Notes: a model not told the origin generated them from the sequence alone. A stretch of DNA of 51,733 bases from Anaerolineales bacterium (GCA_020630175.1 JAHDBW010000009.1:1-51733); one strand, 5' to 3'; positions 16,215-42,100 are shown, counted from the first letter of the stretch. Numbers and translations are program-made.

Positions 16215-17428
16215 TATGAAGACATCCTTTTTGCCAAAAAAGGTCGTTTGGCTATAAATTGCAACCCCTCACTAAAAACCCACAGCCCCAACATAATTAG
16301 AAATGGTGCACTTGGAATGCTGTATCGCACTGTATTGTGCTCAAACACAGAAGAGGCAGCGACAAGAATTACCATTGCAATTCCAGAAAAAAGAATCAAT
16401 AAGGCATTGGGTAAGCTTAGGCGTTGTACAAAATAGCGCAAAATGAAAAAGCCTATGACTAGTCCTATTATGATTGCTACTAAGTAGAGTGGTTGTAACA
16501 GGGTGCCTAACTTTTCGATTGAGATCGGATTGTTCGCTTCTACAAATTTGATTTGTTTTTCTTCAGAATTTTCCCAAATCGTGATGTATCCGAAATAGAA
16601 GTTAGTGGGTATCCACGTTAGGAAGTGTGAAAACTGTAAGGCAACAGTTTTGTAAATTGACACATATAGAATCTGCGCGTAATAAATCGCGAAGAATGTG
16701 CACAGCCAAACAATGAGTGCTCTAAATCGCCATGTCATAAAGACGGCAGCGAAGATTACAAAAATTACTGGGACTTGCTGAATTCTAAATAAAGCAATCA
16801 GGGCGCAGCTAATAGCGCAGCCAATTAGCGCAAGTGTGGAATTTGTGTTCGCAAACCTAGCAGCAAAATATACGCCCGTGATGCCACAAAATGTTGTGAT
16901 TCCGTCTGGCAAAATAACGAGCCAAGCGACCAAAGGGACATTGACCATTCTTAGGATTGCTGCGTTTGGGTGAACAACTAATATCCCCCAAAAGATAATC
17001 GGCAGCACTGCCCAGATAGCGGCTGATGCTAAGGCAACTAAATTATTTTTCGTGACTTCCCGTGCCATAACATATAGCGCGATGACAGATAGGCTACCTA
17101 GCCCAGCGCCAAGCGTTGGTACAGTGATCGACAGAATAGTCTCATAACTGGAGGCCATTCCTAACTTAATCGCCATCGCTAACAGGGCTGGGAATCCGAC
17201 TTGAATTGAGAACAGTTCAGAGAAATCACCTGTGGCAATGTTTTCTGCGAATTGATAATAGTAATTCTGGTCACCACCATGGTGAAAATAGTAGCCAATA
17301 TGCGAATCTAAAGCGGGTATGCCTAAGACTAATAGAATAACAATTAGCAATCGGGTTAGCGTAAAGCCTAGGGCAAATGCAGTGGCGTGGTTGGATAGAT
17401 AATGGATTATGGTGTTGAGTTTAGACAT
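16214..17428 (-). CDS. Multi-TM membrane protein, candidate GT-C glycosyltransferase
   Basis: A 404-residue protein with about ten predicted membrane helices and little else. After TM1 the loop GYYFHHGGDQNYYYQFAENI contains an acidic residue where GT-C glycosyltransferases carry their catalytic Asp, and FSIQVGFPALLAMAI resembles the GT39-type continuation. I do not recognise the family with certainty. Polymerase (Wzy) is an alternative, because the locus otherwise lacks one, but no Wzy signature is evident. Its start overlaps the acyltransferase stop by 8 bases and its stop overlaps the AsnB-like start, so it is co-translated with glycan genes. The base composition is more A/T-rich than the genes beside it. 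Confidence 0.65.
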   Translation of the reverse strand: MSKLNTIIHYLSNHATAFALGFTLTRLLIVILLVLGIPALDSHIGYYFHHGGDQNYYYQFAENIATGDFSELFSIQVGFPALLAMAIKLGMASSYETILSITVPTLGAGLGSLSVIALYVMAREVTKNNLVALASAAIWAVLPIIFWGILVVHPNAAILRMVNVPLVAWLVILPDGITTFCGITGVYFAARFANTNSTLALIGCAISCALIALFRIQQVPVIFVIFAAVFMTWRFRALIVWLCTFFAIYYAQILYVSIYKTVALQFSHFLTWIPTNFYFGYITIWENSEEKQIKFVEANNPISIEKLGTLLQPLYLVAIIIGLVIGFFILRYFVQRLSLPNALLILFSGIAMVILVAASSVFEHNTVRYSIPSAPFLIMLGLWVFSEGLQFIAKRPFLAKRMSS

Positions 17429-20603: not shown

Positions 20604-21521
20604 TTACTTTACGCTGCTACGTAATACCTCTCGATATCCGCGAATAATGCCATACATGTTTGCAAGGCTTTCTGCCATGCGGACAACAGTAAATGGGATG
20701 AAGTCTTTCAACCAACCATAGGGCGATTTTTGAGATATTTTTATCGCATTCCAAAGAGATGGCAGAATGAGGACAACACCGAGTAAGCCTATTGTTAGGT
20801 GCCAAGCAATTAATCCAAATAAGCGCAATCCATGATAACCATCATAATTCGCCCAGACTTGACTGCTGCCATGACCGCGGCCTGCACGCTGTTGTAAAAA
20901 TGTTCGCCAGTCCTCAGGCATAATATGGGTGACTTTTATGTCTCTTGCAAATACCTTTGTGAAGTCCATGTCACGTAATCGTTCACCAAACCAGCCATCT
21001 TCGCCAGCAAGAATGGGGGCGTTTTTACCTTCTGGAAATAGACCCGCAGCTATGGCGGCTGATCTTCGACACGAGAAACCTTCTGTCCAGTTCATATCAA
21101 TGTTTCTAGACGGTGGATAAAAATAACGGTGACCGGCTTCGATGTAGCGAGGCAGCAAGTGGTCAATATTTTCAACTTCACTTTCTACTAATACGTAATC
21201 TGCACCGGCAATGTAGTGTGGTAACAGGTCTGTTAAAAGCGTTTTAGGTAAATGTACATCAGCGTTGAGGATTAGAACAATTTCACCATTTGCCTCAGTA
21301 ATGCCTTGATTTCGCGCTGCTGAGCGCCCCGTTCCATGGCTTTGACGCCTATATTGGACGCGTTCATCATCAAACGATTGAATGATGGCTGGTGTTTGAT
21401 CTGATGATTCATCAACGATGATGATTTCGTAATCTGGATATTCTAAAGCCAACAAGGCCGTAATTGTCTCGGCAATGTCAGCTTCTTCGTTGTAGGTAGG
21501 AATGACAATTGAAAAACGCAT
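20604..21521 (-). CDS. GT2-family glycosyltransferase with C-terminal membrane segment
   Basis: A 305-residue GT-A enzyme: FSIVIPTYNEEADIAETI, IIIVDESSDQTP, GTGRSAARNQGI and the metal-binding VLILNADVHLP (an N-A-D version of the D-x-D motif). A hydrophobic helix near residues 230-252 probably anchors the C-terminal part. It likely adds a sugar to the membrane-bound intermediate. It sits 7 bases after the upstream GT4 stop. The first Asp of D-x-D is replaced by Asn, which is seen in some GT2 enzymes, so activity is still plausible. Confidence 0.85.
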   Translation of the reverse strand: MRFSIVIPTYNEEADIAETITALLALEYPDYEIIIVDESSDQTPAIIQSFDDERVQYRRQSHGTGRSAARNQGITEANGEIVLILNADVHLPKTLLTDLLPHYIAGADYVLVESEVENIDHLLPRYIEAGHRYFYPPSRNIDMNWTEGFSCRRSAAIAAGLFPEGKNAPILAGEDGWFGERLRDMDFTKVFARDIKVTHIMPEDWRTFLQQRAGRGHGSSQVWANYDGYHGLRLFGLIAWHLTIGLLGVVLILPSLWNAIKISQKSPYGWLKDFIPFTVVRMAESLANMYGIIRGYREVLRSSVK

Positions 21522-21528
21522 TGCAGGC

Positions 21529-22731
21529 TTAGAAGAGAGCTGGGTAAACAGATTTTAATGCGTCGACGATCTTGTGTTCCACGGCGGTTAGGCTGAAGTT
21601 ATCAAGCGCATATTGACGGCTTTTTTCTGACAGACTTTTTGCGAGTATAGGTGAGTCTAAAATTTGGCTTACATACGCTGCCATTTGCTTCGCATCACCA
21701 ACATCTACCAAAAAGCCAGTTTCATTATGCATAATAACGCTTTCTGGCCCGCCGCATTTTGTAGAAACAATCGGCAACCCGCTAGCCATTGCTTCAAGCA
21801 TAACAATGCCCAAGCCTTCTTGATTTGAGGAGAGGACAAAAACGGACGCATCTTGATAAAGTTGCGCTAGATCTTCTGTAGAGAGGTAGCCTAGAAAATC
21901 GACATAGTCGCCCTGACCGGATTTTTCAAGAACATCTAGGATCCAAGCCACTGGGGCTTCGCCTGTTAGTTTCAGGCGCATGTTGGGGTACGTTTGCCGA
22001 ACCAGACGTAACGTTTCAAATAAGGTGTAAACGTCTTTGCGCTCATCGTTGATCCGCGCGGTAAACAACAGAAAAGGTTTTCTTTCTTTTGCCGGGGGGG
22101 CAAATATATCTGTGTCAACCGGGTAGATTGCGACTTGTGTCTTCGCTGCAAAATCGGGGTATTCTGCTGCAATGCGTTGCGCAGTATGCCCACCATTGGT
22201 CAGAATTACAGATGCATTTTTGAAAATTTCGTATTCTTGCTTATCTAATTCTTGCCGATTGCGGCCGATTTGCATTTGCTTTGCCCACTCGCTTCCCCGT
22301 TCAGCGCGTCCGGCCAACTCATCTTGGTATAGCGTTCCGATCCAAATAATATAGGGTTTGTCTTGCGTTGTGGCTGGCCACCCAACATGGTTACTGCCTG
22401 AGATTACAAAATGAATATCGGCATTGGCAAAGCCTTTACGCGCAATATATGCCGGTAATTTGTTTGTCCGCCAAATTGATAATGGATAATGCGGAACGGC
22501 ATACCCATCAAACTGGCTTGCGGTGACGTTACTTGTTTTGTATGGGAACGGCCGGCGAATAAAATGCCACAATTTTGCAATTAACGAAGTTGTAGGAACT
22601 TGATGGGCGGCCGTATATAAGATAGATGTGCTATGCCCAAACCGATCCAGTATGTTTTTTGCGACGCGAACTTTCGCGATTACACCACCGTGATCAATGG
22701 GTTCAATAGAATAGATGCAAGCTTTTGCCAT
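21529..22731 (-). CDS. GT4-family glycosyltransferase
   Basis: A 400-residue GT-B enzyme beginning MAKACIYSIEPIDHGGVIAK. The linker region has VAIYPVDTDIFAPP, the donor domain has LLFTARINDERKDVYTLFE, a GYLSTEDLAQLYQDASVFVLSS strand, and E-x7-E in QEGLGIVMLEAMASGLPIV. Family members act in the cytoplasm on lipid-linked glycans. The gene starts one base after the stop of the preceding GT1-like gene. No unusual features beyond the many glycosyltransferases around it. Confidence 0.88.
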   Translation of the reverse strand: MAKACIYSIEPIDHGGVIAKVRVAKNILDRFGHSTSILYTAAHQVPTTSLIAKLWHFIRRPFPYKTSNVTASQFDGYAVPHYPLSIWRTNKLPAYIARKGFANADIHFVISGSNHVGWPATTQDKPYIIWIGTLYQDELAGRAERGSEWAKQMQIGRNRQELDKQEYEIFKNASVILTNGGHTAQRIAAEYPDFAAKTQVAIYPVDTDIFAPPAKERKPFLLFTARINDERKDVYTLFETLRLVRQTYPNMRLKLTGEAPVAWILDVLEKSGQGDYVDFLGYLSTEDLAQLYQDASVFVLSSNQEGLGIVMLEAMASGLPIVSTKCGGPESVIMHNETGFLVDVGDAKQMAAYVSQILDSPILAKSLSEKSRQYALDNFSLTAVEHKIVDALKSVYPALF

Positions 22732-22732
22732 A

Positions 22733-23734
22733 TTATTCGTTGTCTAGATATTGCAAGATGGTTTGCATCCGATCTTGGTATGTGTTGTTGCCGCCGGTAA
22801 TGAACGCATGCGCATTAGCACTAATGGTTTTACATAAATCTGGGCGTTGCAAATAATAATCTAGTTTTTCTAATAATTCTGCTTGTGAGGTGAAGAAGTC
22901 TGCTGTTTCACCTGCAACGAATAATGAACGGTGCTCTTCGGTATCTGTTCCGAGCATGAATGCTCCACAGGCGGGTGCTTCATAGGTGCGCATATTATGC
23001 GCTGGTCCATTTTGTGCGCGGGTGAAATTCAAAGTAATCTGCGCATTGGACAGGATTGGCGCTAACTTATCACCTTCTGCAACGCCGCGTACACAGGGGC
23101 GAAGTGGGCTATCTGATGCTAACCGATGCCAATGGTTTCCCCAAAGCTCAAGTTGACTGGCGTCAATGCCTTGTAACATCGTTTCTCTTGGCTTGTCCCA
23201 CGTTCCAGCAAAGACGACTGCCGCATTTGTATTATTTGCCACAGGCTTGTGCAAGATAGGATCGTATGCAAATGGTAAATAGTGGATTTGCTGCGCACCA
23301 GCTTGCTGAAAGCGTTCAATTAAGAACTTTCCCCAAGTAAAGTGTGCATCGTAAATTGGAATTGACTCTAATAAGTCAGCACTACTATTGTGCTGTTCCC
23401 ACGGACTATCTGGGTTCCAATTCACAAGCTTTGCATCGGTTTGAGCTTTGATCTTAGTCAGTGTGTTGACTGTGAACTGGCGGCCGCCAAGAATCAGCAC
23501 AATATCTGGCTTGAAGCGTTTGATTTTCCTTGGTAGGAATGCATTGACCCATTTGCGCTCGATCCAATGCGAGATATCGGGTAAGACGGGGATAGAGGAG
23601 GCGCGCCAGCTAGCAAACGGATACCCAGCCATATCAAAGGTGGCAACAGCTACATTTAGGCCTTGTAGTCCTCTTAGACAAAATGCCCCTAGCTGTCCGG
23701 GCGTCATTTCACCGACTAATAGTATTCGTTTCAA
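22733..23734 (-). CDS. CgeB-like glycosyltransferase
   Basis: A 333-residue protein with a CgeB/GT1-type C-terminal domain: FTRAQNGPAHNMRTYEAPAC, then GAFMLGTDTEEHRSLFVAGETADFF split by a short loop. This is the arrangement of the spore-maturation CgeB-like group, assumed to be GT-B transferases. I place the start at TTG 23734, giving KRILLVGEMTPGQLGAF at the N-terminus with GAG a few bases upstream. A TTG at 23776 would add 14 residues inside the upstream aminotransferase and is not needed. The start lies 1 base after the aminotransferase stop. Substrates unknown. Confidence 0.8.
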   Translation of the reverse strand: MKRILLVGEMTPGQLGAFCLRGLQGLNVAVATFDMAGYPFASWRASSIPVLPDISHWIERKWVNAFLPRKIKRFKPDIVLILGGRQFTVNTLTKIKAQTDAKLVNWNPDSPWEQHNSSADLLESIPIYDAHFTWGKFLIERFQQAGAQQIHYLPFAYDPILHKPVANNTNAAVVFAGTWDKPRETMLQGIDASQLELWGNHWHRLASDSPLRPCVRGVAEGDKLAPILSNAQITLNFTRAQNGPAHNMRTYEAPACGAFMLGTDTEEHRSLFVAGETADFFTSQAELLEKLDYYLQRPDLCKTISANAHAFITGGNNTYQDRMQTILQYLDNE

Positions 23735-23735
23735 T

Positions 23736-24881
23736 TTATCTCGAAGATTTGTGGATTGTATCCAATACAACTTCAATGTCTGTTGTTGTCATGCCAACCC
23801 ATAGTGGTAACCGTACTAACCGCTCGCTCAAATTTGTAGTCAGCGCAAGGTCACCGTGACTACGGCCATATTTCATTCCGGCTGGTGAGCTATGGAGCGG
23901 TACATAATGAAATACGCTAAGAATGCCCGCAGCGCGTAATGTTTCTATAAATTGGGTGCGTTGCGCTAGTGACGGTAGCAATATTTGATACATATGGGCA
24001 TTATGCTGGCAGTCTGCGGGCACAATTGGGCGGCGTAAAACTTCTCTGTTTTCTAAATCGGCAAGCCCATCATGATAAAGCTGCCAATGGTGTAGTCTGC
24101 GATCTGTAATCTCTTGGGCATGTTCAAGCTGGGCCCATAGAAAAGCGGCAATAATTTCGCTTGGTAAGAAGGATGACCCTAAAGAGACCCAAGTGTATTT
24201 ATCGACTTGATTACGAAAAAATTTGCTACGGTTGGTGCCTTTCTCACGAATAATTTCGGCGTCTTCAATCCAGGTCTTGTCATTGATTAACAAGGCGCCG
24301 CCTTCACCAGAAATTACATTTTTTGTTTCGTGAAAGCTAACCGTGCCAAGATCTCCAATACTGCCTAGGGGTTGCCCTTTATAACTGGCCATCATGCCTT
24401 GAGCTGCATCTTCAATCAAAAAGAGGTGATGTTTTTTAGCGATTGCTTTGATGGTATCCATCTCGCAGCTTACACCGGCATAGTGGACGGCCACAATTGC
24501 TTTTGTCTTTGGTGTAATGGCTGCTTCAATTAGCGTTTCGTCAATGTTGAGCGTGTCTGCTCTGATGTCAACGAAAACTGGAACGGCTCCACGTAATACA
24601 AATGCATTTGCTGTTGATACAAACGTGTATGATGGCATTATGACCTCATCACCCGGTTGAATATCGATCAACAGTGCAGACATTTCTAGCGCCGCAGTAC
24701 AGGAGTGAGTCAACAATGCCTTTTGCGAGGTGGTTTGTTGCTCCAACCAGGCATGGCATTTTTTTGTGAATGTACCATCGCCGGATAAATGCTCCGCATC
24801 TATCGCGTTTTGTATATATTCAAATTCCTTACCGGTTGCGTAGGGTCGGTTGAATGGGAAGGGGCTTTTGGGTGTGGTCAC
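23736..24881 (-). CDS. rffA: RffA/WecE-type dTDP-4-keto-6-deoxyhexose aminotransferase
   Basis: A 381-residue PLP enzyme of the DegT/DnrJ/EryC1 family that follows the enterobacterial WecE/RffA pattern closely through most of its length (PFNRPYATGKEFEYIQ, SGDGTFTKKCHAWLEQ, IQPGDEVIMPSYTFVSTANA, IREKGTNRS, VDKYTWVSLGSS). The PLP Schiff-base Lys is K187 in SFHETKN, and EDAAQG (157-162) contacts the cofactor. RffA makes dTDP-4-amino-4,6-dideoxy-D-galactose (Fuc4N). The start is GTG at 24881. No rmlA/rmlB or RffC-like N-acetyltransferase is in the window, so precursor and acylation steps are elsewhere or different. Identification is strong; the exact amino sugar is slightly less certain. Confidence 0.88.
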   Translation of the reverse strand: MTTPKSPFPFNRPYATGKEFEYIQNAIDAEHLSGDGTFTKKCHAWLEQQTTSQKALLTHSCTAALEMSALLIDIQPGDEVIMPSYTFVSTANAFVLRGAVPVFVDIRADTLNIDETLIEAAITPKTKAIVAVHYAGVSCEMDTIKAIAKKHHLFLIEDAAQGMMASYKGQPLGSIGDLGTVSFHETKNVISGEGGALLINDKTWIEDAEIIREKGTNRSKFFRNQVDKYTWVSLGSSFLPSEIIAAFLWAQLEHAQEITDRRLHHWQLYHDGLADLENREVLRRPIVPADCQHNAHMYQILLPSLAQRTQFIETLRAAGILSVFHYVPLHSSPAGMKYGRSHGDLALTTNLSERLVRLPLWVGMTTTDIEVVLDTIHKSSR

Positions 24882-24901
24882 TATTTTGAATTGGATTGTG
24901 C

Positions 24902-26422
24902 TTATTCACTACAAGTATAAACACTTGATTGTGAGCTCCATGGAATATAAGGTGTTTCAATTATCCCTTCGAGCTTACAGTGTTGTTCAGCATAGTCTTC
25001 TAGTGCTTCTATCACAGGCTCTCGATTGGTGCTGCAATGTAATCGTCCGTCTAAAACGAGAGTGCCGATATTTTGGCGCGCCAGAATTGTGGGTATTTCG
25101 GCTGCAGCTTGCGCTTGTGATGCGTAAACTCTGGAATACCAGAACAGTTGAAAGTCTGATACTAACGCTAGGTCAGATAAGCCATACCACCAGCTTGCTT
25201 CCATTAAGATTGTTCGATCTGGATCTACAAGTGCCCGGATTTGGGTGATTTCTGCATTGTAATCATAGGTGCGGTGTGAATAAACTAACCAACTGCTGCC
25301 TAAAAAGAAGATAAAAACTGTGCCTGCTAAGACGCTGTTTAGCAGGATTATTCCGTTTTGGCTGTTCGTTTGCTCAAAGGTTTGTGATAGCCAAGCAACC
25401 GCGCCACCGACTAAAATTGCGATTAGTGGTAACCAAGGTGTTGCATGGTACCAAGCTTTGGAACTTTGTGGGGTGAATAGCAACATTGATATGCCAAACA
25501 CTGCAACTAACGCAATATCTAATGTTGTGCGGCGTTTGACGGCGATGGCTACACCAATAAACAGCCCAATTGCTTCAATGACTGCAAGATAGCGATTTGC
25601 CACAATAAAGTTTGCCCACATCCAATTCAATTGATCGAGCAGCATTTCTCCAAAGCCACGTGGCACGCCAAACGAATTGATACCACCAAAAAATTGTTGA
25701 TAAGCGATTTGTGGATCTGGGTAAGCATGAATTGGAATAAAGTAAGCGATGCCTGCTAAAAATCCAGCTGTAAACCAGCCTAAAACGCGCCAACTCCGTT
25801 CTTTTACCAGATATGTGCCTAGTATCAATAGCCCAATGCCGGTTCCAAAGAAAATTGCGTTTAGATGTGCATCAATGGCAACAATCAGTAGTAAGCCTAA
25901 TAAAAACGCCCACTGCGGCTTTTCAGTTTTACGAAGTTTTAGGTAGACCCAAATTTGGGTAAGGACAAGAATTGCAAGTAATGCTTCTGGGCGGGCAAAG
26001 CGCGTGCGTAACAGCATCGAAGGTGAAACTGCCATAAATATAGTGGCCCAGAGTGCTGGTTTTTTGCCATATACGCTGTGCGTGATGGCATACACTAAAA
26101 ACGCAATTATTAGCCAATTGAAGTATCCCAACAGCCGTGCAGACCACATACTAACGCCCAATACTTTAAAGGTCAGCGCTAATAGTGCCGTGTATAAACG
26201 GCCCATCCCAACATAGTTAGTGGCAAATCCCTCTAGATCGCCTAGTAATTGGGTTCCGAAATAGCCTGTGTTTAGAAATGTTAGCGCGGTATCGCCATAA
26301 TATCCTTCATCACATTGCGCATATGGGTATTTTTCGAGGGTGAGAAGATTGATTGCGGCCCAAATTGCAAATAATAAACTGCTGAATCTAGTCGCAATTT
26401 TTGAAACCAATGATGAAGACAT
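24902..26422 (-). CDS. GT39/ArnT-like membrane glycosyltransferase
   Basis: A 506-residue protein with about ten or more membrane helices. The first external loop has YPYAQCDEGYYGDTALTF, with the Asp-Glu pair typical of PMT/ArnT/GT39 catalytic loops, and FARPEALLAILVLTQIWVY follows. It probably transfers a sugar from a polyprenyl phosphate donor on the extracytoplasmic face. The GtrB-like GT2 at 27251-28180 could make that donor. It lies 52 bases downstream of the second Fe/2OG oxygenase gene and 20 bases upstream of the aminotransferase. Confidence 0.82.
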   Translation of the reverse strand: MSSSLVSKIATRFSSLLFAIWAAINLLTLEKYPYAQCDEGYYGDTALTFLNTGYFGTQLLGDLEGFATNYVGMGRLYTALLALTFKVLGVSMWSARLLGYFNWLIIAFLVYAITHSVYGKKPALWATIFMAVSPSMLLRTRFARPEALLAILVLTQIWVYLKLRKTEKPQWAFLLGLLLIVAIDAHLNAIFFGTGIGLLILGTYLVKERSWRVLGWFTAGFLAGIAYFIPIHAYPDPQIAYQQFFGGINSFGVPRGFGEMLLDQLNWMWANFIVANRYLAVIEAIGLFIGVAIAVKRRTTLDIALVAVFGISMLLFTPQSSKAWYHATPWLPLIAILVGGAVAWLSQTFEQTNSQNGIILLNSVLAGTVFIFFLGSSWLVYSHRTYDYNAEITQIRALVDPDRTILMEASWWYGLSDLALVSDFQLFWYSRVYASQAQAAAEIPTILARQNIGTLVLDGRLHCSTNREPVIEALEDYAEQHCKLEGIIETPYIPWSSQSSVYTCSE

Positions 26423-26474
26423 AAATTTATATAACGACTACCGAATTTGAGAGGAGTCAATTAAAAGTGACTGA

Positions 26475-27242
26475 CTATTGTTGATCAGATAGTTGTTTGG
26501 GTTTTGTATTTACATCCATGTTGTAGTCTGAGCGTAATATCAACGGGAGAATGATCCAGCGTCCATCGCGGCTATTCCAGTCGATTGATTGCTCGGCATC
26601 TACAGGGCTTACGCCATGTGCAACTCCAGGAGAAAGCACCATCAAGTCCCCCATTTCTGCTAATGGATCAATCATTACTGGGGGCGCTGCTTCATCAGGC
26701 CGTATGTATAATCCGCCAGTTTTATAGTCTTCGCCATAATCTGACATTTGGATCAAAGTTTGAATAAGTGCAAATTTTGAGTTGGGATCAGCATGTTCTG
26801 CTAAGTAGCCGCCACCACGCGGATATTGCACAACCAATACGCGTGAAATCAATCCATCGGAGGGTTGGTTGGTAATGTGGGCAGTTTTGGGTTCACCCGC
26901 TAGATAATTCTTGATCTCAAAAATGTCTCTAAAATCATCAACAATAGCAGTGTTGTTAAAGTGATGAAAATAGTAGGTGTGGGTACGCGCTTTTACCCAA
27001 GATTTTGGGTATTCATCATTGATACGATGGTAATCAGGCACACCATCTAAGCAGGGATGCCATGAAGGGTCTGAATGCGCGTTGATTTCCAGTACCTGTT
27101 CACGCAACGCGATGCATTTCTCACGCGGATAATAATTTTTTACAATGTAACCTTCATTAGCTTCAATGGCGGCCATGAAAGCTGCTGTGTTGTTATAGAC
27201 TAAGTCGTGAAATTCAGTCCGTGAGATCGTATGAATTGCCAT
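26475..27242 (-). CDS. Fe(II)/2-oxoglutarate-dependent oxygenase (paralogue A)
   Basis: A 255-residue protein that I assign to the Fe(II)/2OG oxygenases from its motifs. LAEHADPNSKF gives the H-x-D pair (His150, Asp152), VAHGVSP the distal His209, and DGRWIIL the 2OG-binding Arg228. The GGLYI strand between them is also typical. With Asp rather than Gly in H-x-D it looks like a hydroxylase, not a halogenase. It shares its N-terminal plan (YIVKNYYPREK, then DYHRIN) with the oxygenase at 30168, so the two are paralogues. It follows the GT2 gene after 8 bases. The substrate may be a free small molecule, an acyl group or a sugar; nothing in the sequence decides. Confidence 0.8.
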   Translation of the reverse strand: MAIHTISRTEFHDLVYNNTAAFMAAIEANEGYIVKNYYPREKCIALREQVLEINAHSDPSWHPCLDGVPDYHRINDEYPKSWVKARTHTYYFHHFNNTAIVDDFRDIFEIKNYLAGEPKTAHITNQPSDGLISRVLVVQYPRGGGYLAEHADPNSKFALIQTLIQMSDYGEDYKTGGLYIRPDEAAPPVMIDPLAEMGDLMVLSPGVAHGVSPVDAEQSIDWNSRDGRWIILPLILRSDYNMDVNTKPKQLSDQQ

Positions 27243-27250
27243 TCCTAAGT

Positions 27251-28180
27251 TTAATCGTGATCGTTCGCTTTGTAAATGTGACGGATGATGGTGTAGGGCC
27301 TTTGTTTTGTCTCAGTAAAAATTACTGATAAGTATATAGCGATGACGCCTAAGCAAAAGGTGATAATGCCACCTACGAACCAGATTGAGACAATGAGTGA
27401 ACTGAACCCCTCTGGCGGATTGCCTTGAATCCAATTCCAGATCATGGTTATGGTATACAGTCCAGAAATACCCAACATTGCAAATCCTAAATATGCAATA
27501 TAAATAAGCGGCCGATTGCTAAATGCAGTAACAGCTTTTGGAATCTGCGCTAGCTTCTTACTTAAGGTGTAGGTTGTTTCTGAATCGTCAGTTTTCTTGA
27601 TGTAAACAGGGATTTGCTCAAAGCCTGCAATTTCATACATGCCTCCCATAATAAATTCATGCTCTTTGTGTGCTGCCAGCGCCTGCGAATACCGTTGTGA
27701 CATTAGGCGGGCGGTGACATGATCATGCGGAACATCGAATTCAGTAAATAAGTTAAAAAAGTAATACCAAGCGCTGCCGGAGATGCGTTCAAACCAACTG
27801 CCTTTACGTCTATCTTGTACGCCAAATGCAACATCTGCAGTTGGGTTGTTTTGAAGAGTTTCATGGAACTTGTGTAGCACTAGCGGATCTTCTTCTAAGT
27901 CAGAATCAATTTGCAGTACATAATCTCCAGTGGCGTATTGATGCCCCGTCATGAGTGCTTTGAAGTGCCCAAAATTACGCGAGAAATCAATTACCGTTAC
28001 GCGTGGGTCTTGATGATGCAATGCAACAGCAAGGTCTAAAGCATTATCAGGCGAACCATCATTCACGATAATGAATTCATAATCATCTGTAATCGCTAAT
28101 GCGGCAGCCTTGGCTCGGTTATAGAACTCATTGAGGTGGGGTGCCGAATAATACAGCGTTGTGATAATGGATAATTTCAT
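27251..28180 (-). CDS. GtrB/ArnC-like polyprenyl-phosphate GT2 glycosyltransferase
   Basis: A 309-residue GT2 enzyme with two C-terminal membrane helices (about 224-247 and 259-286). SIITTLYYSAPHLNEFYNRA, FIIVNDGSPDNAL, DFSRNFGHFKALMTG and the metal site LQIDSDLEEDP are present, and YLSVIFTETKQRPYTIIRHIY ends it as in GtrB. Such proteins load a sugar onto polyprenyl phosphate for use by GT-C enzymes outside the membrane, here perhaps the one at 24902. Its ATG overlaps the amidohydrolase stop (ATGA). It is the only glycosyltransferase inside the oxygenase/ATP-grasp module, which ties that module to glycan synthesis. Confidence 0.86.
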   Translation of the reverse strand: MKLSIITTLYYSAPHLNEFYNRAKAAALAITDDYEFIIVNDGSPDNALDLAVALHHQDPRVTVIDFSRNFGHFKALMTGHQYATGDYVLQIDSDLEEDPLVLHKFHETLQNNPTADVAFGVQDRRKGSWFERISGSAWYYFFNLFTEFDVPHDHVTARLMSQRYSQALAAHKEHEFIMGGMYEIAGFEQIPVYIKKTDDSETTYTLSKKLAQIPKAVTAFSNRPLIYIAYLGFAMLGISGLYTITMIWNWIQGNPPEGFSSLIVSIWFVGGIITFCLGVIAIYLSVIFTETKQRPYTIIRHIYKANDHD

Positions 28181-28956
28181 GCTGATGCTAAAAAAGTCGC
28201 AAGATTTTTGTGTGCGATATTGTGTTTTTTCTCTTCAGGTATTCCTTCCGCAAAGATTTCAAAGCGCTTTCGTAATGCCTGTGCTGAATATTCGGGATGA
28301 TCTGTGCCGATACAAATACGCCGGTCAAAACGTTGAAATAGAAATCTTATATCAGCATCTATTGAACTACCTTCATATTTGAAGAGCGTCAGTGATAAAT
28401 CTAATAACAGATTGTGATTGAAGCGAACGAGTTCCGCATAGCGTAAAAGCTGAACATCACCACCGTGCACTAAGATTACTTTTGCAGTAGGCGCTTGTTT
28501 TAGGTTTGCGATAAGGGCATACAAAGGGTCTTGCACCGGATAATGCTCGATGGCCGTGTGCATATACGTGCAGTAGAACACAACTAGCTTATGCTGTGCT
28601 GCAAGTTGAAAGACCGTACCAATTGAATCGTCTGTGGCTTGTGCACCACTAAAACGGGCGTGAACTTTGACGCCTACGTAGCCTAGCTGTTTTATGGTTT
28701 CTATTTCTTTTTCAAGTTCAGGATGATTTGGATTGAGGCCAGCGACTGGAATAAGCTCCGGATACTGGCTGCAAGCTTCCATAAACGCCGTGTGCGCATA
28801 CCCTTCTGTTTGATCCATGCCGATTGCGCAGGCTTTTACAATATTTGCCTGTTGCATTTGTGCTAACAAGTCCGTGAAGGTTGCAGACTGTTGATGTCCT
28901 AGCCATTTTCCAGTAAGCGTAGGGTGGGCTAAGGAATCAAAAATTGGAATACTCAT
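28177..28956 (-). CDS. Amidohydrolase-superfamily protein
   Basis: A 259-residue TIM-barrel type protein of the amidohydrolase_2/TatD-like group. FDSLAHPTLTGKW (Asp7, His11) stands where the usual H-x-H metal motif is found, but in altered form. VGVKVHAR (His99), VILVHGG (His164) and ICIGTDHPEY (Asp219) provide the later metal or catalytic residues. Such enzymes hydrolyse or decarboxylate small carboxylic substrates. The altered first metal motif means the metal content may differ from classical members. It is coupled by ATGA overlaps to both the ATP-grasp gene upstream and the GT2 gene downstream, so it almost certainly belongs to the same pathway. Substrate unknown. Confidence 0.78.
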   Translation of the reverse strand: MSIPIFDSLAHPTLTGKWLGHQQSATFTDLLAQMQQANIVKACAIGMDQTEGYAHTAFMEACSQYPELIPVAGLNPNHPELEKEIETIKQLGYVGVKVHARFSGAQATDDSIGTVFQLAAQHKLVVFYCTYMHTAIEHYPVQDPLYALIANLKQAPTAKVILVHGGDVQLLRYAELVRFNHNLLLDLSLTLFKYEGSSIDADIRFLFQRFDRRICIGTDHPEYSAQALRKRFEIFAEGIPEEKKHNIAHKNLATFLASA

Positions 28957-30155
28957 TTTAAGTGGATTGTTGTTAGTTGATAGGCATCAACTAGCATTTG
29001 ACGCATTGTTTCCGGGGAGTTAAAGCGCATTACTAAGTTGCCAATCGCAAAGTTTCCAGAATGAAATGGTTGTACGGTAGCGCCTTTGGCTATGTAAGGC
29101 GTGTAATGTTCTATGTGCTGCTTAATTTCAGGTGAAAGTGTAACGCCTTCATATATACCTGCTTGTTGTGAATGTAACATGTAACAAGCGATTGGCGGTG
29201 TTGTTGAAGAACTAGCGTTTGGTAACTGATAGGCTGAGTCTATTGCAGACTCAACTGCGGCTGCGATTAAGTCTACGCCAGTATGTAATTTGATAGCAGT
29301 TGGGATGAAATTGCCCCCACTGCGTGGGCCAATTTCTATTACAAAGGGCGTGTTGTCTTTTGTAACAATTACATCGAGATTGAACACGCCGCGTTGATAC
29401 CCAGCCGCACATAGAATCTCTTCTAGTTTGTGGGAGACTGCTTCTAAAACAGCAGGGCTGTGTGTACTAGGAAAGGTCTCTCCATAAGGCGCCGCAAAGC
29501 GTGCTCCCGAATAGAAGTAGCCATCTCCAAAGCATACAAACCGCAGCTTGCCATCTTCCATATAGCCATCACCACAGATTTGAAATCCTTGTTTTTCAAT
29601 AAACGTTTCAACAATAATCCTTTTGGATATTGAATAGCTGAAGGCATTCTCAATGTGATCTGTGATGTTTTCAAGGGTATTTATTACATAAACACCTTTG
29701 CTACCGGCTGAGTCTACAGGCTTGATAATGTAAGGCAGCGTTACAGAACGAAGCCAATCAATAGCGGCGTCAACCTCTTCAAGTGTGAAGCTGCGTGTGT
29801 CTAACGTTTGTAAATTTGTTTCATTCAGAAACTGGCGAAACTGATGCTTCTGCGTTAGTCGCTCAATTGTGTCAATCGGTGCGCCGGGTAATCCTAGCGC
29901 CTTGGCAACAATAGCAGCGGTTGGTGCGCCTACGTCAGAGCCAAACGATAGGATTCCTGCGATGTTTTCTTGTGACGCAATTTCTAGAATTGCATCACTA
30001 TCAATTGTGCTGACGTTATAACTAGCATCGGCTATAGCATGGCCCGGATTGCCTGGTCTGTTATCACAAGTAATAACGCGGTACCCAGCCTGTTTAGCAT
30101 ATAGGATTGGCGGCATTTGAAATGCCGCTGCGCCAAGAAACAGAATTGATTTCAA
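28953..30155 (-). CDS. ATP-grasp family ligase
   Basis: A 400-residue ATP-grasp protein. The N-terminal Rossmann-like domain begins KSILFLGAAAFQMP. The central domain has YIIKPVDSAGSKGV (Lys145, Gly-rich loop 149-155), and the metal-binding region has FNLDVIV then FVIEIGPRSGGNFIP (Glu274, Asn282). This is the carbamoyl-phosphate-synthase/PurK/BacD-like architecture, which joins a carboxylate to an amine or similar nucleophile through an acyl phosphate. In this setting it could form an amide on an amino sugar or make a dipeptide-like building block. The start is TTG at 30155, twelve bases after the upstream oxygenase stop; the sequence from there fits the family N-terminus. Its stop overlaps the amidohydrolase ATG. 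Confidence 0.84.
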   Translation of the reverse strand: MKSILFLGAAAFQMPPILYAKQAGYRVITCDNRPGNPGHAIADASYNVSTIDSDAILEIASQENIAGILSFGSDVGAPTAAIVAKALGLPGAPIDTIERLTQKHQFRQFLNETNLQTLDTRSFTLEEVDAAIDWLRSVTLPYIIKPVDSAGSKGVYVINTLENITDHIENAFSYSISKRIIVETFIEKQGFQICGDGYMEDGKLRFVCFGDGYFYSGARFAAPYGETFPSTHSPAVLEAVSHKLEEILCAAGYQRGVFNLDVIVTKDNTPFVIEIGPRSGGNFIPTAIKLHTGVDLIAAAVESAIDSAYQLPNASSSTTPPIACYMLHSQQAGIYEGVTLSPEIKQHIEHYTPYIAKGATVQPFHSGNFAIGNLVMRFNSPETMRQMLVDAYQLTTIHLK

Positions 30156-30167
30156 GAAATAGTGTCT

Positions 30168-30944
30168 CTAACTCTGTTTTTCTAAGTCAATCGCGTCACC
30201 GATATTGGCATTTCCAAACAAGCGATTGACAGCAAAGAGTAACATCCAGCGGCCCTGAAAATCGTGCCAATCTACAGTCTTGTGAGGGTCAATTGGTAAA
30301 ACGCCATGCGGGACGCGAGCATTGAAGTAAACAATATCACCCCAGCCTGAAACATCATCAACAATAATCTTTTCGCCGTTTTCACGGGTTACGTATAATC
30401 CGCCTTCGTCGAAGTCAGTTCCTTTTTCTGAAAGCTGCATGATTGGTACAGTAAGTTGATGATAATCTACAGGATCAGAGTGCATATTCAGCCGGCCATG
30501 CCCCTGTGGATAAAACTGAAATGCAATACGTGCGGTACAACCGTCTTCAGGTTCAATACCCAGATAAGAGTCGGCACGTAAATTACTAAGCAAATTCTTC
30601 ATGAAATAGACTTCTTTGAAGATGGTAAACATATCAAATAAGTCCTGATTCCATGGGAAGAATACAAATTGATGAAAGCAGCCTTGTACATGTGCCCGTG
30701 GATCAATACGATTCATGCGATGAAAGTTAGGGGCGTGCTGTTCAATCCGATGATAATTTGGTAATGAGCTTTGCCCGACCATCACCAAGTAATTACGGAT
30801 CTTTTCTAATAAAGGGCGTGGATACACATTCCTTGCAATATAGGTGTCTCCGGCCGCAATATTTGCGCGCACCTCTTCTATTGCAGCATGATCTTTTAGT
30901 AATGCTTTGTGGTTGTCAATATATTTAATATCTCTAGCGTACAT
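30168..30944 (-). CDS. Fe(II)/2-oxoglutarate-dependent oxygenase (paralogue B), first gene of the cluster
   Basis: A 258-residue protein with the full facial triad. LNMHSDPVDYH supplies His155 and Asp157, VPHGVLPID supplies His213, and QGRWMLLF carries the 2OG-binding Arg232. The paralogue at 26475 shares the same spacing and the motif order (YIARNVYPRP, NYHRI, GGLYV), but the sequences have diverged widely, so they probably act on different substrates or positions. This is the first gene of the minus-strand cluster, with ATG 30944 and GGAG five bases upstream. It is divergent from the LuxR/Kelch-like regulator at 31176. Confidence 0.8.
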   Translation of the reverse strand: MYARDIKYIDNHKALLKDHAAIEEVRANIAAGDTYIARNVYPRPLLEKIRNYLVMVGQSSLPNYHRIEQHAPNFHRMNRIDPRAHVQGCFHQFVFFPWNQDLFDMFTIFKEVYFMKNLLSNLRADSYLGIEPEDGCTARIAFQFYPQGHGRLNMHSDPVDYHQLTVPIMQLSEKGTDFDEGGLYVTRENGEKIIVDDVSGWGDIVYFNARVPHGVLPIDPHKTVDWHDFQGRWMLLFAVNRLFGNANIGDAIDLEKQS

Positions 30945-37311: not shown

Positions 37312-38520
37312 CTAACCAGCGGGCAAAGTTGAGTTTTTCCAGTGTCGATTTTCTAGTAAATAGTAACCTGTAGCTAGCCCAAACTCGCTAAGTACATACA
37401 CAATTCCAACAATAATTAGTGTGCCCGTTGTAGCGGCCCAGACCGTTGCGGCAATATTTATGCAAGCGATCACGGCTTGGACGCCCACGCGCTGTGACTG
37501 CCAACCACCGGCAACCAGTAAAGCGGCGGCCGCGAAGCTAATGCCACGGGCGACCAAAATCAAGCTTAGCCAGCCTAACAGTTGGGCAGCGACAGAATAC
37601 TTTGCTGGCACATACGGACCGCCAATCCACAGGAGGAGTAGTGTGCTGAGCGTGAGACCTAATCCGACTACGGCTTGAATGCTGTAATTGCGCCGCCGCC
37701 ATTGTCCCAGCGCTGCCTGTGATTTAGAGAGTAACGGTACGAACACTGAATAAATTGAGTGTGGCAGTAGAAACAGGGCCGTCAGCACGCGCGTGGCAAG
37801 ACCGTAATGCCCCGCAGCTTCTAGCCCACTAAGGTTGGCAACAATGGTGATATCTGCATAGGTATACGCCACCGCAAGTAGCACAGAAAGTGCATAGGGC
37901 GGACAACTGCGCACCAGCTGCGGCAATTGCTGCAAATCGATGTGCAACGGAGCGTTGCGGTTGATCCAAATGGCTAAACCCACCCCCAATCCCACTGGTA
38001 ATAGCCTGGCAATCAGAATTTGATGACTGGTCACCGTATCCAACAGGAAGAGCGCCCCAATGCCAGCAATGGTGCTGATTGCGGTCACAAGTGAAACGCG
38101 TAGCGTAGACTGATTTTGTAGCTGACTTTTGAAGAACGCCAGATACGTTTGTAGGATGCCTTCTCCCCAAATAAAGCTGGCGGCTAATAGCACTAAGCTA
38201 GGCGGATATAAATCTGACGCTAACCAGCTGGCCGCGCCATACATCAGCCCCAGCCAACTGGCACCGATACCCACCCGCAAGATAAGCACGTTGCCAAAAT
38301 GGGCTTCCGGTTGGGTCTGTTTCAACAGCCAGATTTCTAGGCCAAGATCAAATACGATTGCCGTGAGTTGCAGCAGCGCGAGCGTTGCGAGTAGCTGCCC
38401 AAACGCGGCGGTGGAGAGCAGTTGGGCGGCGAATAAAGTCGCCACCAAGCTTGCAATGCGGTGTGCAGTTGCACCCGATAACACCGCCCCAATTTGAGAA
38501 ATAAAAGCGCGCTGATTCAT
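37312..38520 (-). CDS. Wzx-like flippase (MOP superfamily), second copy
   Basis: A 402-residue protein with about 12 hydrophobic helices. The N-terminal RIASLVATLFAAQLLSTAAF and GQLLATLALLQLTAIVFDLG pattern is that of polysaccharide flippases. It is shorter than the 492-residue flippase at 17997 and not closely similar to it. It is the last gene of the 43.2-37.3 kb operon and overlaps the preceding GT4 by ATGA. It probably exports the product of that operon's glycosyltransferases. Confidence 0.84.
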   Translation of the reverse strand: MNQRAFISQIGAVLSGATAHRIASLVATLFAAQLLSTAAFGQLLATLALLQLTAIVFDLGLEIWLLKQTQPEAHFGNVLILRVGIGASWLGLMYGAASWLASDLYPPSLVLLAASFIWGEGILQTYLAFFKSQLQNQSTLRVSLVTAISTIAGIGALFLLDTVTSHQILIARLLPVGLGVGLAIWINRNAPLHIDLQQLPQLVRSCPPYALSVLLAVAYTYADITIVANLSGLEAAGHYGLATRVLTALFLLPHSIYSVFVPLLSKSQAALGQWRRRNYSIQAVVGLGLTLSTLLLLWIGGPYVPAKYSVAAQLLGWLSLILVARGISFAAAALLVAGGWQSQRVGVQAVIACINIAATVWAATTGTLIIVGIVYVLSEFGLATGYYLLENRHWKNSTLPAG

Positions 38521-39677
38521 TTCAGTGCTGCTAAATAGAGCGCTTCATGCTGCTTGGCAACATTGGCAATGCTGAAGGTGGCTGCGGTGGCTAAGGCGCG
38601 GTTTGCGCTGTCGGCAAGGTGGTCTGGATTGGCCAGCGCTTGCAGAATTTGGGTCGCTAAACTCTCCGGCTGCCGAACCGGCACTAGCCAACCGTTCTGC
38701 CCATGCTGAATCAAGGTGTTGTTTCCCGCAATGTCTGTCGCGACGACTGGAACCTGAGCGGCCATGCTTTCTAAAATAACGGTCGGTAGGCCTTCCCAAT
38801 GAGAGCTAGAGACCACTAGCGTGGCTAGCGGTAGCAGCGTTTCAATGTCCGTTTGCGTACCAACCAATTGCACAATGCCTTGTAAGTTTGCGCTGGTAAT
38901 CTGCGCTGTTAGGCTGGCACGGTCTGGCCCTTCACCGACGATCAAAAATCGATAGGTAGGCTGGTGCTGATGAACTTGAGCGGCAGCTTGAACAAAATCG
39001 GCAAAGCCCTTTTGGGGGCTCAGGCGCCCAATGCCAAGAATAAGCGGGTTGGCTGGGCTAAGTCCCCATTCACTTAGGCGTTCTGGTGCTGGTTGCGCGG
39101 CCTGAAAACGGCTTAGATCGACAGCATTTGGTAACCATAAGACGGGGTGCTTTTGAAGAGCTGCAAGCCTGCGCGCATTGAGCGTGGCGGCGATTTCAGC
39201 TGAAACGCCAAACGCTCGTTGAAATGTCCAAAGGTAGGCAAAATTAGACAGCACTCGCCGCCGGATCGGGCGTTTTTGCCATTCCACATTGTGCGCAGTG
39301 CGCCAAGCCGGACAGGGTAAGCTGCCCGTTAGCTTTAGAAACACGAGCGCGATTTCGCCAAATTCTGAGTGGCAGTGGATCAGGTCCGGCTTGCTTGTCG
39401 CTAGGGCTGCGGGGAGCTGTCGGTACGCTGCGAAAAATGACTGATAAGGACGGGCTGGATTGAATGGCGCTAGCGTTTGCGGATTGAAGCCGGCTTCGGT
39501 CAGGCGTTGCCGACGCTGCCGTTCTCCAGCGGTGTTGCGCGCCCATAGTGCCAGCAGCGTGACCCGAAATTGCGTGCGGTCTAGCGCATACGCTAAGGCC
39601 TCTGCGAAACGCGTTAGGCCACCAGTATTTTCCGTGTCAAAATCTGGCACGAGCAGCAAAATGTGCGGCTTATGCAT
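38517..39677 (-). CDS. GT4-family glycosyltransferase
   Basis: A 386-residue GT-B enzyme opening HKPHILLLVPDFDTENTGGL. DLIHCHSEFGEIALVFL, WLPNAVDLSRF, GIGRLSPQKGFADFV, GEGPDRASL and the E-x7-E motif in WEGLPTVILESMAAQVP are all present. ATG at 39677 overlaps the upstream stop by 8 bases, as at other junctions here; ATG 39683 and GTG 39707 are possible longer starts. It is coupled to the pyruvyl transferase upstream and the flippase downstream. Specificity unknown. Confidence 0.87.
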   Translation of the reverse strand: MHKPHILLLVPDFDTENTGGLTRFAEALAYALDRTQFRVTLLALWARNTAGERQRRQRLTEAGFNPQTLAPFNPARPYQSFFAAYRQLPAALATSKPDLIHCHSEFGEIALVFLKLTGSLPCPAWRTAHNVEWQKRPIRRRVLSNFAYLWTFQRAFGVSAEIAATLNARRLAALQKHPVLWLPNAVDLSRFQAAQPAPERLSEWGLSPANPLILGIGRLSPQKGFADFVQAAAQVHQHQPTYRFLIVGEGPDRASLTAQITSANLQGIVQLVGTQTDIETLLPLATLVVSSSHWEGLPTVILESMAAQVPVVATDIAGNNTLIQHGQNGWLVPVRQPESLATQILQALANPDHLADSANRALATAATFSIANVAKQHEALYLAALK

Positions 39678-40923
39678 TGGCATTGTAGTCGGCTTTGATT
39701 TGGGCACACGCGCTATGGGCTAGGGCTTGGTATGGCCCGAGTGCTTGTGCCAACTGCGCTTGGTAAACAGTCTGATGGGTGAGTGCGTTTGTTAGCAGTG
39801 TGGTCAGTTGGGGCGCATCGCAGGCTTCAATCGGCACAACCCAGTTGGCGACGTTTAGCTGCCTGGCTAGCCCTTGGAGCTTGGGTTGGTATGCAATCCC
39901 AACAAACGGCACATGCTGGAGGCTGCTAAAGATAACGCTGTGCATGCGCGTCCCTAGCAAACAGTCCAATTGCCCATAGAGATCAAAGAGTTGTGGGGCT
40001 GGCAAGGCGTCAGTGACGGTGTGCACGGTTGTCGTTTTGGCGAGGGCCGTGCTAACGCGCTGTGCCGCTAAGCGATCATCTTGATTGGCAGTGGGCCCGG
40101 TCACTTGCGGAATAAATATCAGCGTCCCGCCAACCTGCGCTTGAACGCGACTAAGCGCATCAGCTACTGCGGCTTCATAGGTTGCTTGTTGTGAGAAGTG
40201 CTTGTTCTGCGCCCCCCAGTCGATCACGGTTACGCCAATCCACGGGCGTGGCAAATTGGGTAGCACATGCGGTTGCGCTGGTGGGGCATAGGCCAAGGCT
40301 AAGTCTGCTAATAAACTGACGTTGGGATGGTCTGGCACAAGTGCTTTGACGAGTGCAAAGCTGGTTTCTTCACGGACTTGGATGCGCGTTGTGCGTTTCA
40401 ATAAAGCTGCTACCCAGCGTTGATCCCGCGTGCGCCATAACGGGCCAATCGATTGCGGCAAGATAAAGAGCGGCGTCTTGCTTAGAACGGCTAGCCACAA
40501 TGTGTATAGCGAAATCAGCAAGGGTAGCCCAAGCTTGCCGCTGGAGTATAAAAATCCACCGGCGCAACTGATGACGATATCCGCTTGTTGATAGGCAGTG
40601 ATAAGGGTGCGCTGCCGCGTTGATATCCCCAACGGACGCCCCAGCGCTGTGGTGAGTAACAGTAATGGCACGGTTGTGATGAGATAGACAGGCAATGCTA
40701 GCGGTCGCCAGTGGATGCCCTGCTCTCGGTCTAATGTCGTGCACAGTGCGTACAGTGAGCCAACAGTTTTCGCTCGGCTGGCTTGGCTGGTTTCATCATT
40801 ACAGGCCACGGTAATCTCTGCGGCTGGAAAGTGCGTTCTAAGCCCTTGGATGGCCGTCTCTAACAACGCTTGATCGCCTGCATTTGCGGAGGAGTGAAAG
40901 TTTAGGATCAGGATGTTAGTCAT
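39670..40923 (-). CDS. Polysaccharide pyruvyl transferase family protein (CsaB/WcaK-like)
   Basis: A 417-residue protein. NFHSSANAGDQALLETAIQG at the N-terminus, VISCAGGFLYSS, FILPQSIGPL, the long C-terminal GTRMHSVIFSSLQHVPFVGI and YQPKLQGLA are signature segments of the pyruvyl transferase family. Members move pyruvate from phosphoenolpyruvate onto a sugar, forming an acidic ketal that anchors or charges surface glycans; in CsaB systems it anchors S-layer proteins. ATG 40923 is chosen since it overlaps the previous stop by 8 bases and begins the conserved TNILILNF strand; the longer frame lies inside the upstream gene. Some members are not pyruvyl transferases, so the reaction is likely, not proven. 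Confidence 0.86.
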   Translation of the reverse strand: MTNILILNFHSSANAGDQALLETAIQGLRTHFPAAEITVACNDETSQASRAKTVGSLYALCTTLDREQGIHWRPLALPVYLITTVPLLLLTTALGRPLGISTRQRTLITAYQQADIVISCAGGFLYSSGKLGLPLLISLYTLWLAVLSKTPLFILPQSIGPLWRTRDQRWVAALLKRTTRIQVREETSFALVKALVPDHPNVSLLADLALAYAPPAQPHVLPNLPRPWIGVTVIDWGAQNKHFSQQATYEAAVADALSRVQAQVGGTLIFIPQVTGPTANQDDRLAAQRVSTALAKTTTVHTVTDALPAPQLFDLYGQLDCLLGTRMHSVIFSSLQHVPFVGIAYQPKLQGLARQLNVANWVVPIEACDAPQLTTLLTNALTHQTVYQAQLAQALGPYQALAHSACAQIKADYNANA

Positions 40924-42100
40924 CAGCGAATAGATCCTTGACGAGGTGATCCCACTGATAGGCGGTAATGTTGGCCTGACCGTGTGCAATCAATCTAGTT
41001 TGGATTTCGGCATCTGCTATTACCTGCCAAATGGCTTCGGCTAGTGCGTCCACATTGCCAGCGACGGGAAACCACGCTGCGGGTAGACCTGCGTATAGCG
41101 TTTTACGTTCCCCAAGCAGGCTGGTGAGAAATGGCGTTGCGGTTGCCCACGCTTCAAATAGCTTAAGCGGTGCGCGACTTAGCGCGGCTTCATCGGCATA
41201 CAGCGGCTCGACGCAAACTGTGCAGAGGCTGTAATAGTCCTTGACATGATGCGCTGGGACCCGACCGGTAAAGTGGCACGCATCTGCAATGCCAAGCGTG
41301 CGTGCTTCGGCTTGGAGTGCAGCCCAATCTTCACCACCGCCCACAATCAACAGGGTGGCGTTTGGTGCTTTATCTATAAGCTGCGTAAAGGCCTGCAAAA
41401 GCAGCGTGACTGGATGGCTGGGACTGCTGAGGCTGCCAATAAAGCCAATGACAGGGCCATGTCGGGTTTCAAGCTGTGCGCTGTGCGTCTCCGGCGCGGC
41501 TGTTGGGGTTAGCCAGTGTGCAGTAATGCCATTTGGCAGCCGTGTAACGGTTTGCTGCGGACACCAAGCGTTGATTTTCTTGGCCATGAAGTCTGTGTTG
41601 GTCAGCACCCCAGTTGCATAGCAGCAGAGGCGCTTTTCAGCCCAGGCTAGTAGCTGCTGTTGGCGCGGGCTGCTAAATCGATTAGATCCAGCTTCGTAAT
41701 CATCAGCATCAACCCAACAGGGTACGCGTTTTAGCGTTGCCAGCAAAAAGCCACTCCCCCCCGCAATCGGCTGTGCTTTGCCAATAATGATGAGGTCTGC
41801 TGGCTGCCAAAGTCCGTGCCAAAAAAGACGCAGCATGGCATTTAGGATGATCAAGCTCAGTTGCACGGGGCCAAAATAAGATTTTGTATTCCCAACCTTT
41901 TTAACGTGCGACTGCGCCACATAGCGCGCTCTGACAGCATCAATCGTAAACCAGCCGCGTTGCGCCGCTGCGATGTTGGCATGCAACATTAATACAGTAA
42001 CCGTGTGCCCTTGGCGGGCAAGGGCGTTGGCAATTGGCAGGGCGCGTCCGTTGCCATACGGGCTTTGCGCATCTTGCGGGATGAGGTAAAGAATACGCAT
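40916..42100 (-). CDS. GT4-like glycosyltransferase
   Basis: A 394-residue GT-B protein: RILYLIPQDAQSPYGNGRAL, DLIIIGKAQPIAGGSGFLL, WVDADDYEAGSNRF, GFIGSLSSPSHPVTLLL and GGGEDWAALQ. The donor region reads LYADEAALSRAPLKLFEAWA, so the second Glu is kept while the first of the E-x7-E pair is missing, as in the APLKLFE subgroup. It starts immediately after the preceding gene's stop at 42101-42103. It probably acts in the cytoplasm on the same glycan as its neighbours. Confidence 0.85.
   Translation of the reverse strand: MRILYLIPQDAQSPYGNGRALPIANALARQGHTVTVLMLHANIAAAQRGWFTIDAVRARYVAQSHVKKVGNTKSYFGPVQLSLIILNAMLRLFWHGLWQPADLIIIGKAQPIAGGSGFLLATLKRVPCWVDADDYEAGSNRFSSPRQQQLLAWAEKRLCCYATGVLTNTDFMAKKINAWCPQQTVTRLPNGITAHWLTPTAAPETHSAQLETRHGPVIGFIGSLSSPSHPVTLLLQAFTQLIDKAPNATLLIVGGGEDWAALQAEARTLGIADACHFTGRVPAHHVKDYYSLCTVCVEPLYADEAALSRAPLKLFEAWATATPFLTSLLGERKTLYAGLPAAWFPVAGNVDALAEAIWQVIADAEIQTRLIAHGQANITAYQWDHLVKDLFADD

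Follow-up and report, generated by a model that had tools for sequence, protein, structure and literature searches.

Excerpts of one report describe type B flagellin of Clostridioides difficile as bearing a deoxyamino sugar with amide-linked amino acids (PMC5207245), and the flagellin modification operon sfmABCDE of Shewanella oneidensis encodes a presumed carboxylate-amine ligase of the ATP-grasp_4 type (PMC3765264). Here we describe a locus with partial likeness to both, found in a 51,733-nucleotide stretch of DNA from an Anaerolineales bacterium (GCA_020630175.1 JAHDBW010000009.1:1-51733), hereafter the window. Five minus-strand open reading frames at 26475-30944 encode an Fe(II)/2-oxoglutarate (Fe/2OG) oxygenase (Ox1), an ATP-grasp ligase, an amidohydrolase, a GtrB-like family 2 glycosyltransferase (GT2) and a second Fe/2OG oxygenase (Ox2). 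No description of this enzyme combination was found in the open-access literature, most subscription papers having lain outside the search. We tentatively propose, at a little under an even chance, that this module makes and exports an amide-linked, hydroxylated amino-sugar decoration for the surface glycan of its operon. A core of the set recurs in other phyla and on a virus contig, and this recurrence is confirmed as more than chance.

The five genes are tightly packed. Ox1 (30168-30944, 258 aa) is the first gene of the operon, the gene upstream of it being divergently oriented. A 12-base gap separates it from the ATP-grasp carboxylate-amine ligase (28953-30155, 400 aa, TTG start), which overlaps the amidohydrolase (28177-28956, 259 aa) by the four bases ATGA. 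The same four-base overlap joins the amidohydrolase to the GT2 (27251-28180), and Ox2 (26475-27242) follows after an 8-base gap. These coordinates and junctions match exactly a first-pass annotation of the window, which had reported five genes on one strand joined by ATGA overlaps or gaps of 8-12 bases. The quintet heads a long same-strand glycan operon. Next in line, 52 bases beyond Ox2, is a GT-C (PMT_2) membrane transferase (24902-26422, minus strand, PF13231 above cut-off), then a WecE-type dTDP-4-amino-4,6-dideoxygalactose transaminase (23736-24881, minus strand), and farther along several glycosyltransferases, a Wzx-like flippase, an acetyltransferase and an AsnB-type protein. The glycan setting given in the same annotation is borne out by this continuation of biosynthetic genes.

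The genes, their families, motifs and order were observed directly, and the core was seen to recur in different phyla. In exactly this five-gene form, the set was encountered in the window's genome alone. An exactly conserved quintet is rejected because Ox2 was seen at no other core locus. The earlier suggestion that the genes form a set holds for the core, which recurs together in other phyla and on the virus contig; co-occurrence of all five families does not extend beyond this genome. What is found elsewhere is ATP-grasp plus amidohydrolase, around which the oxygenases, GT2, aminotransferase and a GH130-like protein vary. The marine virus contig IMGVR_UViG_3300029319_009046 carries in a row a PhyH-like oxygenase, an Ox1 homologue (60% identical to the window's protein), a GH130-like gene, ATP-grasp (47%), amidohydrolase (43%), a mini-DegT and an epimerase. 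Isolated phage records in INPHARED gave no match to Ox2 or to the virus ATP-grasp, and PHROGs gave none to Ox1, Ox2, ATP-grasp or amidohydrolase, the mini-DegT alone matching. A Pseudoroseomonas cervicalis plasmid encodes, within about 6 kb, a wecE homologue, HMGL-like and GH130-like proteins, the amidohydrolase, an Ox protein 44% identical to Ox1 and ATP-grasp; a second Pseudoroseomonas strain has amidohydrolase and Ox side by side in a partly masked locus. ATP-grasp, Ox, a TylF methyltransferase and a WecE homologue lie together on an Indioceanicola plasmid, downstream of genes reading as flgK and flgL. The Chloroflexota genome G246 keeps the window's order, with a class-I-like aminotransferase, ATP-grasp, amidohydrolase, a methyltransferase-like frame and GT2, and its amidohydrolase start overlaps the ATP-grasp end via ATGA, as in the window. 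Across 20 genomes of a Bacteroidota family, ATP-grasp and the GH130-like gene occur in exactly the same six, a coincidence of 2.6e-5 if the genomes were independent, which they are not; amidohydrolase is present in four of the six and the PhyH-like oxygenase in three. Gene adjacencies in this family comprise PhyH/GT2 in two genomes and GT2/GH130-like and GH130-like/ATP-grasp in one each.

Genes beside and within the quintet point to how a sugar could be supplied and delivered. The transaminase passes both WecE models in NCBIfam (TIGR02379, 632 bits against a cut-off of 435; NF008687, 622 against 375), with 6blg and 4piw as its best solved matches. RmlB is encoded elsewhere in the window's genome, and WecE homologues adjoin Ox or ATP-grasp genes at two other loci (L011 and L012). 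The enzyme is the probable amine source. The GT2 exceeds the PF00535 (Glycos_transf_2) cut-off and matches GtrB (5eke, E 2.4e-33, residues 2-302) along its full length, as well as ArnC (9hwj, E 5.5e-21). By these similarities it is probably a polyprenyl-phosphate sugar transferase, with the GT-C as its probable acceptor-side partner.

In the pathway we propose, RmlB and the WecE-type transaminase would provide dTDP-4-amino-4,6-dideoxygalactose. The ATP-grasp enzyme would turn a carboxylic acid into an acyl phosphate and join it to the sugar amine, the acid probably being an amino acid or a hydroxy acid. Ox1 and Ox2 would hydroxylate the acyl part or the sugar. The amidohydrolase might hydrolyse, decarboxylate or ring-open the acyl precursor. 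The GT2 would then load the sugar on polyprenyl phosphate, and the GT-C would pass it on to the glycan at the outer face. The hydroxylated acyl or aminoacyl substituent suggested in the first-pass annotation stays a putative product; the WecE-type neighbour, which that annotation left out, provides a plausible amine acceptor. A sugar aminotransferase, a carboxylate-amine ligase, oxygenases and a GtrB-like GT2 are the recurrent neighbours, and an acylated amino-sugar scheme is the most economical one. Support comes from the company of a sugar aminotransferase on the virus contig and the Pseudoroseomonas plasmid, from the single operon shared with glycan genes, from the WecE models passed, from the GT-C gene that follows a GtrB/ArnC-like GT2, and from the joint presence of ATP-grasp and the GH130-like, amidohydrolase and PhyH-like genes among the 20 Bacteroidota genomes.

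The ATP-grasp protein exceeds the Pfam cut-offs of PF13535, PF07478 and PF02786. Its nearest solved structures are 4dim and the L-amino acid ligase 3vot, and K145, E274, R278 and N282 are invariant among its close relatives. A housekeeping role (purine, arginine or Ddl) was considered and rejected, the best NCBIfam model reaching 89 bits against a cut-off of 625 and the others falling far below. The earlier reading, which a plain amino-acid or purine enzyme would have overturned, is upheld on this point. A phylogenetic tree unites six rows in one clade (100/100): the window's protein, that of the virus and four from Bacteroidota, of which three come from genomes that encode the amidohydrolase. 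ATP-grasps near DegT genes without amidohydrolase sit outside this clade. The amidohydrolase-linked proteins of Pseudoroseomonas and G246 form a second group, though on long branches, so two ATP-grasp lineages appear linked to this amidohydrolase family. DegT aminotransferases lie near related ATP-grasps in Brachyspira, Bacteroides, two Bacteroidota genomes and a second virus contig. Two further arrangements were noted on virus contigs. At L022:1074-2924 a mini-DegT (48% identical to that of L019) directly precedes an ATP-grasp of this kind, and at L023:8839-10336 a class-I-like aminotransferase does so, as in G246.

Ox1 and Ox2 are paralogues (29% identity, E 7e-39). Ox1 has a conserved HxD at 155-157 with H213 and R232, and Ox2 has HxD at 150 with H and R downstream; the HxD...H iron triad and the downstream 2OG-binding Arg are kept in both and in their relatives. 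Neither reaches a Pfam family cut-off, Ox1 giving no match and Ox2 scoring 17.4 bits against 27 for PF13640. The AlphaFold2 (AF2) model of Ox1, with a mean pLDDT of 72 and weak at the active-site loop, has solved Fe(II)/2OG oxygenases as its top Foldseek matches at a moderate TMq of about 0.4-0.5, and is predicted to form the double-stranded beta-helix fold. A first scan of genome contigs with Ox1 alone as query gave no match. Distant members of the Ox family adjoin GH130-like genes without ATP-grasp at three loci (L050, L051 and L052). TylF-type methyltransferases stand beside them at two of these, and one cluster reads like nonulosonic-acid biosynthesis.

The amidohydrolase scores 41.6 bits for PF04909 against a cut-off of 26.4, and its AF2 model (pLDDT 88) is a predicted TIM barrel whose structural neighbours are isoorotate decarboxylase (IDCase), 2-pyrone-4,6-dicarboxylate hydrolase (a LigI-type lactonase) and ACMSD. 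Bacteroidota homologues are 55-60% identical to it. The strand-1 DxHxH metal motif was absent from the window, Bacteroidota, virus and G246 proteins, which read DxLxH, and Pseudoroseomonas has DxHxG. His164 of strand 5 and Asp219 of strand 8 are kept in the aligned set. A tree of the family gave no resolved branching. Strict binding of this enzyme to the module is rejected, as it is encoded elsewhere in the genome in Bacteroidota. Four Bacteroidota loci (L016, L017, L034 and L035) place it outside glycan clusters, and it adjoins RecQ in two genomes.

Several points weigh against the proposed pathway. We infer its substrates, reaction order, catalytic steps and final structure from what is known of the families, and the altered first metal motif leaves metal use and activity of the amidohydrolase putative. 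The GH130-like partner was not found in the window's draft genome. In G246, the aminotransferase is class-I-like and no oxygenase lies near the ATP-grasp/amidohydrolase pair. This last arrangement, in which ATP-grasp, amidohydrolase and GT2 stand without an Ox match, fits an alternative we consider unlikely, namely that the oxygenases take the sugar, or a lipid-linked form of it, as substrate and work apart from the other two enzymes, making the quintet two adjacent sub-pathways for one glycan. The distant Ox genes found beside GH130-like and TylF-type genes speak for it too, but Ox is adjacent to ATP-grasp, or one gene from it, in the virus, Pseudoroseomonas and Indioceanicola loci.

ATP-grasp chemistry permits either direction, and the enzyme might instead amidate a uronic acid at its carboxylate, using an amino acid or amino alcohol as the amine, with WecE serving a separate sugar in the same operon. 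Excerpts of the source describe amidated glucuronic acid in the Campylobacter jejuni capsule as a precedent (PMC11800379), and one gene on the virus contig reads like a UDP-sugar dehydrogenase. The strong WecE assignment in the window's operon and the aminotransferase genes near most related ATP-grasps nevertheless make this alternative quite unlikely. Bacteroidota homologues are mostly dispersed, with no visible tie to a glycan cluster, so the product may not always be a surface glycan. The gene set might instead yield a soluble small molecule, either a peptide-like compound or a hydroxylated acid, its place in a glycan operon being incidental. This would suit these scattered loci and the L-amino acid ligases among the nearest solved relatives of ATP-grasp, but is improbable: overlaps lock the window genes to a GtrB-like GT2, a GT-C comes next, and a GT2 neighbours partner genes in Bacteroidota and G246 as well.

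The distribution of the module suggests that it was laterally acquired. Of 400 genomes sampled from the window's phylum, one, the window's own, showed the Ox family, and two of 370 showed the amidohydrolase. G+C is 0.42-0.46 for genes from 20604 to 30944; for the other genes of the window it is mostly 0.48-0.55. Neither congener has a close ATP-grasp, nor does a family member (drafts, 78-92% completeness), so vertical inheritance within the genus is unsupported. Low G+C together with absence from sampled relatives makes lateral acquisition the simplest reading. About as tentatively, we extend the amino-sugar proposal to a laterally mobile, so far undescribed pathway, built on ATP-grasp and an atypical amidohydrolase and served by Fe/2OG oxygenases that can replace one another, which would add oxidised amide-linked groups to amino sugars in Chloroflexota, Bacteroidota and Alphaproteobacteria and which marine viruses would carry for remodelling of host or virion glycans. 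If this is true, current annotation has overlooked an enzyme set that recurs and makes amide-linked, oxidised sugar decorations: its oxygenases stay below every Pfam family cut-off, and its ATP-grasp reaches that of no named family. It would also link environmental bacteria with viruses and offer a small, defined enzyme set for new sugar chemistry.

Other glycan genes in the window lie farther from the quintet. Between the acetyltransferase/Wzx-like genes and AsnB, a 404-aa protein (16214-17428, minus strand) with no Pfam match and a G+C of 0.42 is, by position alone, a candidate Wzy-type polymerase. The region also holds two AsnB-type asparagine synthase proteins (3098-4981 and 14346-16214, minus strand), accompanied by a heparinase-like protein (11211-13121) and a fused ADH/Gfo-Idh-MocA protein (8953-11091). 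A second run of glycan genes (37312-43180, minus strand) includes a polysaccharide pyruvyl transferase, glycosyltransferases and a Polysacc_synt-type flippase.

Set beside known systems, the locus combines familiar parts in another way. The window amidohydrolase has its fold and Pfam family in common with isoorotate decarboxylase, 2-pyrone-4,6-dicarboxylate hydrolase and ACMSD, but is about 12-17% identical to them and has DxLxH as its first metal motif. GtrB/ArnC and GT-C delivery systems are matched along the length of the GT2 and by the PMT_2 GT-C gene next to the quintet; to our knowledge, ATP-grasp, amidohydrolase and oxygenases are not part of such systems. The WecE pathway to dTDP-Fuc4N is matched by the aminotransferase, which passes the WecE models, and by RmlB in the genome, but that pathway has a WecD-type acetyltransferase beside WecE where the window has ATP-grasp and oxygenases nearby. 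The sfmABCDE operon is likewise a five-gene glycan-modification operon that includes an ATP-grasp protein, but its partners are NeuB, a thiamine pyrophosphate enzyme, a reductase and a methyltransferase, with no amidohydrolase and no oxygenase term (PMC3765264). The C. difficile type B locus also pairs a sugar aminotransferase with an ATP-dependent ligase, but in excerpts of its description it builds on Fuc3N (an FdtB-like enzyme) with a putative D-Ala ligase, an alanine dehydrogenase and an acyltransferase, and these excerpts describe no oxygenase or amidohydrolase (PMC5207245). In place of that combination of FdtB, D-Ala ligase and alanine dehydrogenase, the window offers a WecE-type aminotransferase with an ATP-grasp that is not of the Ddl kind, and no alanine dehydrogenase was seen among its scanned operon genes. 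By analogy, the window set may work like the C. difficile type B system without being a member of it.

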